A stretch of DNA of 64,000 bases, from contig JAIXXN010000053.1 of assembly GCA_027490725.1 (NCBI GenBank), positions 186,001 to 250,000 on the forward strand, written 5' to 3'. This DNA comes from Oxalobacteraceae bacterium. GTDB taxonomy: Bacteria; Pseudomonadota; Gammaproteobacteria; Burkholderiales; Burkholderiaceae_D. Numbering within the stretch: the first letter of the stretch is position 1; the number at the start of each line of letters is the position of its first letter. A program made the position numbers and the translations under genes. This document shows positions 22,223-23,458 of the stretch, in pieces. Under the pieces are notes generated by a model. It saw only the letters and a list, made by a program, of their open reading frames with translations. It was not told the DNA's origin and made no database searches.

Positions 22223-23458
22223 GTGGCCTACAAGAAAACCATTGATGTGCAGGCTGCCGTGGCGATTGCTGCGGCAGAAGCGATTAGCGCCAAAACCCAG
22301 GGTACTTTCGGGGTGGGTGGCCTGATGCTGGATCAGCACGGTAACGTGCTGCAATCGCTGCACAGCAATGTGATCAAACAAGGCCTGATTTTCGATCCGA
22401 CGGCGCATGCCGAGCGCCAGCTGATCGACTGGTATTACGCGGAGCGGGCACGCGGCGTCGACCTGCCGGCGCCGCAAGACATCACCATCGTCACCTCGCT
22501 CGACCCCTGCTGCATGTGTGCCGGGGCGATCCTGGCTGCCGGCTTCAACGTGCTGGTAGCGGCACCCGATCACAGTGCCGGCGTCAATTACGATGGCCGC
22601 GCCAGCTTCGAGACCTTGCCGGAGCCGCTGCGTGCCGTGGCGGCGGCCAGCTTCAGCTATCCGGCTGTATTGGGGGCGTCGTCCTACCGGCGCATCGCCT
22701 CAGGCGCCGCGCCCAAACCATTCTTCATTGGCAAGACGATTGCCGAAGCTACCCAGGCACTCTGCTCGCTGGTGTTCGAAGCGACTTCGGAAGCCGTGAT
22801 GGCGCTGTTCCAGACCGATCTGCCGGGCGAGGACTTGCGGGATGTGGCCACGCTGCCAGCCGATCACGCCATTGTGCGTGGCCTGAAACAGCTGTACCCC
22901 GACGCGCTGACCTACCGCTGCACGCCGCAGCAACCTGATGCGGGACTGGCGCCGTTTCTGACCCAGGCCATGCTGCGCGATCGCGAGCAGGGCGGCGCCG
23001 GTGATGCGGTGGCCTTGCTAGACCGCTTTGGCAACCTGCTGCTGTGCATGAGTGGTCGCCTGAGCCAGTCGGGCATCCGGACTGCCTTCATGGAAACCAC
23101 CCGCGCGTATGCGCAGCTGCGTTTCAAACTGATGGCGGGGGCGACACCGGAACGGCAGGAAGAAGTGCGCCGTTATCTCGGTCATCCGAAGGAAGGCAGC
23201 TTCGTGTTTGCGCTGGGACCGGATGCGAGTGCCTTGAGCTTCATGAATCTGGGCGCCTATGGCTCGACCATGGAAGGGCCGCTGCCGGCTTACAATCGGG
23301 CGCAATTCCAGTATGTGCTACCACGTCTGGCGGACGCTTCCTTGACGGGGCTGTGCGCAGCCATGCCGCCACTGTATCGCGACACCATACGCATCGCTCC
23401 CGTGCCGGTTGCTGATCAGGCGCTGGTCAGCGAACTGAAGACCAGTGCCGGATCGTAA
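22223..23458 (+). CDS. Tandem deaminase-fold protein: active N-terminal, degenerate C-terminal domain
   Basis: A 411-residue protein starting at GTG 22223, last gene of the deo-type operon, 13 bases after cdd. The N-terminal domain has a full TadA/CMP-deaminase zinc site: His62-Ala-Glu64 and Pro95-Cys96-Cys97-Met98-Cys99. The second half realigns to the first without gaps over 38 residues at an offset of 230: LDQHGNVL (36-43) matches LDRFGNLL (266-273), and Gly54 matches Gly284. There His62 and Glu64 become Thr292 and Arg294, and the PCCMC loop becomes Pro333-Asp-Ala-Ser-Ala. It is thus an internal duplication with a dead second site. The substrate is unknown; adenosine, guanosine or a base would fit the operon. 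Confidence 0.85.

Follow-up and report, generated by a model that had tools for sequence, protein, structure and literature searches.

Base editors derive from deaminases of the TadA class, and the single-domain enzymes related to the protein described here dimerise; yeast cytosine deaminase, for example, is a single-domain homodimer with a base as substrate. In the dimeric cytidine deaminase (Cdd) of E. coli, an active N-terminal domain is fused to a dead C-terminal domain of the same fold, and ADAT3 and APOBEC3G join this Cdd as further deaminases with a dead partner. The way in which a dead partner shapes the active site is known mainly from eukaryotes (ADAT2/3, CDADC1, and APOBEC3G). The abstract of PMC10354150 describes ADAT2/ADAT3 as an active subunit with a pseudo-catalytic partner. 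In excerpts of PMC12088426, human CDADC1 has two deaminase domains, one of them inactive, and the fused dead domain substitutes for one of the ring's subunits.

Here, we analyzed a tandem deaminase gene in a stretch of 64,000 nucleotides from an Oxalobacteraceae bacterium (the window). Based on the evidence below, we read its product as a zinc-dependent, TadA/GDA/yCD-class deaminase that acts on purine (deoxy)nucleosides and forms a built-in pseudo-dimer, a reading to which we give a probability of about 0.5 and in which the substrate is deduced from context. The protein differs from the systems above: ADAT2 and ADAT3 are two separate proteins acting on tRNA, and CDADC1 has its dead domain first, dCTP as its best substrate, a trimeric and hexameric organization, and a vertebrate distribution. 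E. coli Cdd resembles the tandem protein in its plan of an active first and a dead second domain, whereas its class differs. An identity as an E. coli-type dimeric Cdd was rejected, with no TIGR01355 match at E up to 1. The original prediction of a TadA-like type rather than the E. coli Cdd class is upheld, the class being TadA/GDA.

TadA, the tRNA adenosine-34 deaminase, has the fold and zinc motif of the N-terminal half and is its best structural match; it also carries a Leu two residues ahead of PCxxC, as does the window protein, but it is single-domain, unlike the tandem protein. An identity as TadA itself was likewise rejected (NF008113, 23.4 bits against a cut-off of 150). A separate TadA-like gene was seen by eye elsewhere in the genome (C1:173186). 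Plant GSDA and B. subtilis guanine deaminase have the class and zinc motif in common with the window protein; they differ in being single-domain and in a Cys contacting the 2-amino group, which is Leu in the window protein. Yeast cytosine deaminase shares HGE and Leu features with the family. As had been supposed, a named family beyond PF00383 was not found, and among the papers listed by searches of the open-licence PMC literature none described this protein family. The protein is a variant of the zinc deaminases that has no name of its own and is scattered among lineages, and its dead-copy principle has already been seen in CDADC1 and E. coli Cdd. It plausibly is an independent case, dead-partner deaminases nonetheless being a recurrent theme, and a bacterial pair of active and dead domains in one chain could serve as a simple model.

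The tandem deaminase gene is the final one in a same-strand run of xapA/punA, deoB, deoC, an aldehyde dehydrogenase gene, deoA, and cdd, with 13 bases separating it from cdd by open reading frame (ORF) coordinates:

14917..15756, + strand: XapA/PunA-type purine nucleoside phosphorylase (TIGR01699, 406.7 bits, cut-off 370.9)
15809..17002, + strand: deoB, phosphopentomutase (ORF; named by sequence; conserved gene order)
16999..17961, + strand: deoC, deoxyribose-phosphate aldolase (ORF; named by sequence; conserved gene order)
17841..20384, + strand: aldehyde dehydrogenase with two PF00171 stretches (ORF and profile matches)
20428..21789, + strand: deoA, thymidine/pyrimidine nucleoside phosphorylase (PF00591, PF02885, PF07831)
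21790..22209, + strand: cdd, tetrameric-type cytidine deaminase (TIGR01354, 136.7 bits, cut-off 113.65)
22223..23458, + strand: tandem deaminase gene (ORF, GTG start, 411 aa)

The phosphorylase shares 66% identity with E. coli XapA, and its score against the XapA equivalog (406.7 bits versus 370.9) agrees with the inosine/guanosine/xanthosine class claimed for it. The actual start of the aldehyde dehydrogenase (17841..20384) probably lies downstream of the ORF start. By eye, its second PF00171 stretch is shorter and without the usual catalytic Cys motif, as in the known ALDH16 type; two enzymes of one operon, the tandem deaminase and the aldehyde dehydrogenase, may therefore each contain a degenerate second copy. 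Among anti-phage defence models, no PADLOC family matched the tandem deaminase at E up to 0.01.

The N-terminal half contains the following features:

22223..22816, + strand: N-terminal catalytic deaminase domain, residues 1–198 (PF00383; predicted fold match to TadA)
22406..22414, + strand: His62-Ala63-Glu64, zinc ligand and proton shuttle by family (H62 and E64 in 70/70 members)
22505..22519, + strand: Pro95-Cys-Cys-Met-Cys99, with zinc ligands Cys96 and Cys99 by family (C96 and C99 in 70/70)

In a Pfam search, this half matched PF00383 with an E-value of 1.2e-9 and 38.4 bits, compared with a curated cut-off of 25, and all nine family members of one alignment set (A3) matched the same profile at E up to 0.001. 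Structural alignment of model residues 7–198 with TadA gave Z 17.7 and an rmsd of 3.3 over 149 residues. When 70 distinct members of the family, including the window protein, were aligned, a complete HxE...PCxxC site was seen in the N-terminal half of every one. The N-terminal half is a TadA/GDA/yCD-type zinc deaminase and, judged by its sequence, apparently a working one. Residue 63 is Gly in 60 of the 70 members, Ala in five, and Ser in five; residue 48 (22364-22366) is Ser in five members, including the window protein, and Asn in the remaining 65.

The original prediction had described the protein as an internal duplication, in which residues 33–70 align with residues 263–300. The second half corresponds to one feature:

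22817..23455, + strand: C-terminal pseudo-deaminase domain, residues 199–411, without a zinc site (separate model; alignment)

Searched alone, this half had no Pfam or NCBIfam match at E up to 1. The two segments are identical at only 6 of 38 positions, and comparison of the halves with hhalign gave probabilities of 10.9, 15.8, and 14.7% for three cuts of one alignment and 3.7% (score 23.0) with a broader alignment. The score of 23.0 exceeded those of all 100 column shuffles (maximum 21.3), and every profile alignment of the two halves begins at offset 230, which recovers the proposed pairing of the segments despite their low identity. As judged at this level, the resemblance is too weak to prove a duplication.

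Structure prediction was more informative. The whole protein was modeled with a pLDDT of 94.6 and a pTM of 0.92, and the C-terminal half, aligned and folded separately, with a pLDDT of 92.7 and a pTM of 0.91. The order of elements in the latter model is helix-strand-strand-helix-helix-strand-helix-strand, within which the predicted structure contains the helix-strand-strand-helix-strand-helix-strand order of the deaminase fold. The top Foldseek match of the C-terminal half was yeast cytosine deaminase (E 6.2e-4, probability 1.00, TM-score only 0.40/0.53); seven matches had E up to 0.001, and the best deaminase matches had TM-scores of about 0.4–0.6. In VIA-align, which re-aligns Foldseek's own matches and is hence a second look at the same set, the best alignment was with 6l2m (Z 13.1, rmsd 2.7 over 131 of 144 residues), and every one of the 50 neighbors listed was a deaminase. 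The models thus settle the question in favor of a duplication, the C-terminal half being predicted to share the deaminase fold. The weak profile comparison between the halves, the lack of a Pfam/NCBIfam match, and the modest TM-scores would fit a chance likeness of an unrelated regulatory domain; given two confident models, one of them of this half alone, and uniformly deaminase neighbors with Z up to 13.1, we consider such a domain very improbable.

None of the 70 distinct family members has an HxE...PCxxC motif in its C-terminal half. In the whole-protein model, strands 1 and 2 of the two halves match with an offset of 230 and strand 3 with one of 238, while helix 2 begins at residue 63 in the N-terminal half and at residue 288 in the C-terminal half. 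The shorter loop before helix 2 in the C-terminal half makes the pairing of His62 and Glu64 uncertain; in the model, their counterparts may be residues 287 and 289 rather than Thr292 and Arg294, and we do not rely on the latter. Among the 70 members, there is no His or Glu at positions 287, 289, 292, or 294 and no Cys at positions 334, 336, 337, or 339, so neither residue register gives the C-terminal half a zinc site. Of the residue pairs originally proposed, the strand offsets and the loss of the site thus hold, and the equation of His62/Glu64 with Thr292/Arg294 is doubtful. Position 292 is Cys in 26 of the 70 members, position 291 is Glu in 65, and at position 294 all have Arg except one, which has Gln.

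The C-terminal half nonetheless has invariant residues of its own, with Asp267, Arg300, His321, Pro322, Leu343-Gly344-Ala345, Ser348, and Glu351 each found in 70/70 members. Several of these fall in one stretch:

23249..23284, + strand: highly conserved dead-domain stretch, residues 343–354, at and after the end of the third main helix (337–350)

Median dN/dS values were 0.095 for residues 4–120, 0.190 for 121–200, 0.126 for 236–370, and 0.173 for 200–405, obtained by the Nei-Gojobori method from 323 overlapping pairs at 80–98.5% identity, which involve related sequences and are not independent of each other. Both halves are under purifying selection, and hence the C-terminal half is a pseudo-domain that is kept, not one that is decaying.

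These observations suggest how the protein could work. The first domain, with its invariant HxE...PCxxC, would provide the single active site of a pseudo-dimer, and we infer that the dead domain stands in for the second subunit of the single-domain relatives and may shape or cap this one active site. Thirteen of the 15 alignment rows of yeast cytosine deaminase span model residues 5 or 6 to 348–362, and the other two end at 196–197. Judged by these alignment end points, not by coordinates, the C-terminal part of the yeast enzyme seems to coincide with the dead-half helix 337–350. This overlap, and the conserved stretch adjacent to the helix, suggest a cap over the active site. The deaminase product would feed the operon's own XapA-type phosphorylase. 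Conversion of adenosine/deoxyadenosine to inosine/deoxyinosine would be the most likely reaction, after which DeoB and DeoC could turn the sugar phosphate into acetaldehyde and triose phosphate.

The distribution of the protein was assessed in samples of genomes from the window's family, order, class, and phylum, which overlap. In the window's own family, 73 of 294 genomes have a full-range copy (matches with E up to 5.1e-130 in the printed list); two broken copies (G237 and G238) and one cut by a contig end (G213) were also seen there. Relatives with 65–87% identity come from Duganella, Rugamonas, Pseudoduganella, Janthinobacterium, and Massilia, and the window's genome is accordingly taken to be Duganella-related. 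Copies were present in three of the 399 genomes of the order sample, one of them (G313) outside the window's family. The protein is found at full range in two of 398 genomes of the phylum sample (the window's own genome and G1024) and in one of 369 of the class sample, namely the window's own genome. The remaining matches in the phylum and class samples (9 and 11 genomes, respectively) span the N-terminal half only, and no free-standing intact dead half was found in the order, phylum, and class samples at E-limits of 1e-20 or 1e-10, with few candidates scored per genome. In the family of G1024, three of 129 genomes have a copy, and in two further groups the counts are 1/10 and 1/7; in Sinorhizobium, a homologue is found in three plasmid records. 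Because of this patchy spread and the 38–54% identity of distant members to the window protein, transfer of the gene between lineages is likely. A phage collection contained no match to the tandem deaminase at E up to 1e-5. One of seven pattern-matching stretches from IMG/VR, contig L135, filed as viral, encodes a relative with 47% identity. By eye, its ORF list includes an apparent insertion-sequence transposase near the relative; this points to a mobile gene more than to one of a phage.

Gene neighborhoods were compared across 52 loci. The cdd gene lies directly upstream of the tandem deaminase in 51 of these and the phosphorylase is present in 50; the loci come mostly from one bacterial family, which makes the linkage close to a single observation. 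The exceptions are L060, which ends at a contig edge, and L080, which has neither cdd nor phosphorylase. A more independent context is provided by two genomes that are enterobacteria-like by gene content (G1493 and G1507), where an XapA-type phosphorylase, a TsgA-type transporter, and a LysR regulator precede the deaminase on one strand. The phosphorylase of this cluster shares 67% identity with E. coli XapA, and the regulator shares 39% with XapR. The two clusters are 95–98% identical in the three proteins compared and hence count as one event. In Sinorhizobium, a phosphorylase fragment and deoB stand beside the homologue (L106:10898-13115), and the homologue itself matches in two pieces in the three plasmid records, with a broken reading frame in the one record read, as if the cluster were decaying. 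The DNA examined around the distant Paraburkholderia copies (L080, L107, and L108) contained no phosphorylase match.

The choice of substrate rests largely on the operon. DeoA handles thymidine and deoxyuridine, Cdd handles deoxycytidine, and phosphorylases of the XapA type handle deoxyinosine and deoxyguanosine and are not known to cleave adenosine. Since the operon covers the other deoxynucleosides and its XapA-type phosphorylase would leave adenosine uncleaved, adenosine/deoxyadenosine is the likeliest substrate, although as a specific assignment we rate it somewhat below an even chance. With a similarly tentative standing, the protein would be a further, independently evolved adenosine/deoxyadenosine deaminase, of the TadA class, acting on free nucleosides and fused to its dead dimer partner, and not of the Add/ADGF amidohydrolase fold. 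In line with the latter, the tandem deaminase had no match to PF00962, the profile of the amidohydrolase adenosine deaminases (Pfam, E up to 1). If adenosine is the substrate, the protein supplies a purine step that the rest of the deo operon does not cover, and annotators gain a named family in place of a generic deaminase.

The original prediction had also assumed that an adenosine deaminase would fill a gap. When E. coli Add was searched against 195 genomes of the window's family, the highest-scoring match reached 153.7 bits; 148 of these genomes had a match at E up to 1e-5, and among the matches listed none exceeded 34% identity. True adenosine deaminases can be distant from E. coli Add, and these scores therefore do not prove that such an enzyme is absent. 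The window's genome has two PF00962 matches, an ADGF-like protein with an export signal apparent by eye and a protein of 335 residues (L114), which is the genome's closest to E. coli Add (32%). L114 scores 414 bits against 3ou8/3pan/3pao/3pbm and 137 bits against 6n9m. We take the former structures to be Pa0148, an adenine deaminase. A title cited in PMC6281700 states that Pa0148 deaminates adenine. The depositors of 3ou8 named it adenosine deaminase, and NCBIfam assigns L114 to adenosine deaminase through two models over their cut-offs (556.2 versus 419 and 356.6 versus 216.55). Hence, the low Add scores and the position of L114 nearer to the 3ou8 group speak for the gap, whereas the NCBIfam name of L114 and the presence of the ADGF-like protein mean that an adenosine deaminase may not be missing, so that the gap is likely yet arguable. 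A guanine deaminase over its cut-off (TIGR02967, 582.1 bits versus 375.4) adjoins the ADGF-like protein (G000:C48:170426-173132), 13-16 kb before the window.

A guanosine/deoxyguanosine deaminase that, like plant GSDA, makes xanthosine for a xanthosine phosphorylase would suit the xanthosine-phosphorylase equivalog found both in the window and in the enterobacteria-like locus, and GSDA and GDA rank among the nearest solved structures. Two residues bear on this alternative. According to PMC9739398, Cys107 of Arabidopsis GSDA touches the 2-amino group, and Asn69 makes contact with N6 when adenosine, a nucleoside that GSDA does not deaminate, is bound. The position of Cys107 is Cys in guanine deaminase (1wkq) and Leu in TadA (1wwr), yeast cytosine deaminase (1ysd), and the window protein (Leu93); across the family, 69 of the 70 members carry Leu there and the other carries Val. 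The GSDA/GDA Cys is thus absent, and a GSDA-like assignment is disfavored by this one residue. In the printed alignments, Asn69 corresponds to Ser48 of the window protein (Asn in 65 of 70 members), a difference that we count against the adenosine reading. Together, the two positions lean away from guanosine and toward an adenosine or cytosine type, as far as sequence can indicate, and the operon favors adenosine. XapA-type enzymes, moreover, cleave guanosine directly, which would leave the step unneeded, and we regard guanosine as an unlikely substrate.

A deaminase acting on free guanine, adenine, or cytosine, for example as released by the operon phosphorylases, appears slightly less likely still. 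Guanine deaminase and yeast cytosine deaminase are among the best sequence matches with solved structures, and both HGE (60/70 members) and Leu93 are features resembling the yeast enzyme, which keeps a pyrimidine substrate conceivable. The genome, however, already encodes the guanine deaminase mentioned above as well as the protein closest to 3ou8, presumably an adenine deaminase, and no operon gene is known to release cytosine. The location of the gene as the last of a catabolic operon, the patchy spread outside the window's family, and the xanthosine type of the phosphorylase would also accommodate a (deoxy)nucleoside that is modified, damaged, or non-canonical, for instance isoguanosine (giving xanthosine) or an N6-substituted adenosine, but ordinary substrates suffice to explain the data, and we hold this to be the least probable of the three alternative substrates. 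We thus retain a purine (deoxy)nucleoside deaminase, with adenosine/deoxyadenosine as tentative substrate, as the preferred reading.

Downstream in the window, at 26801-28961, two adjacent proteins were seen by eye to have a C-terminal VPEPETYAMLLAGLG...RRR tail resembling a PEP-CTERM sorting signal.
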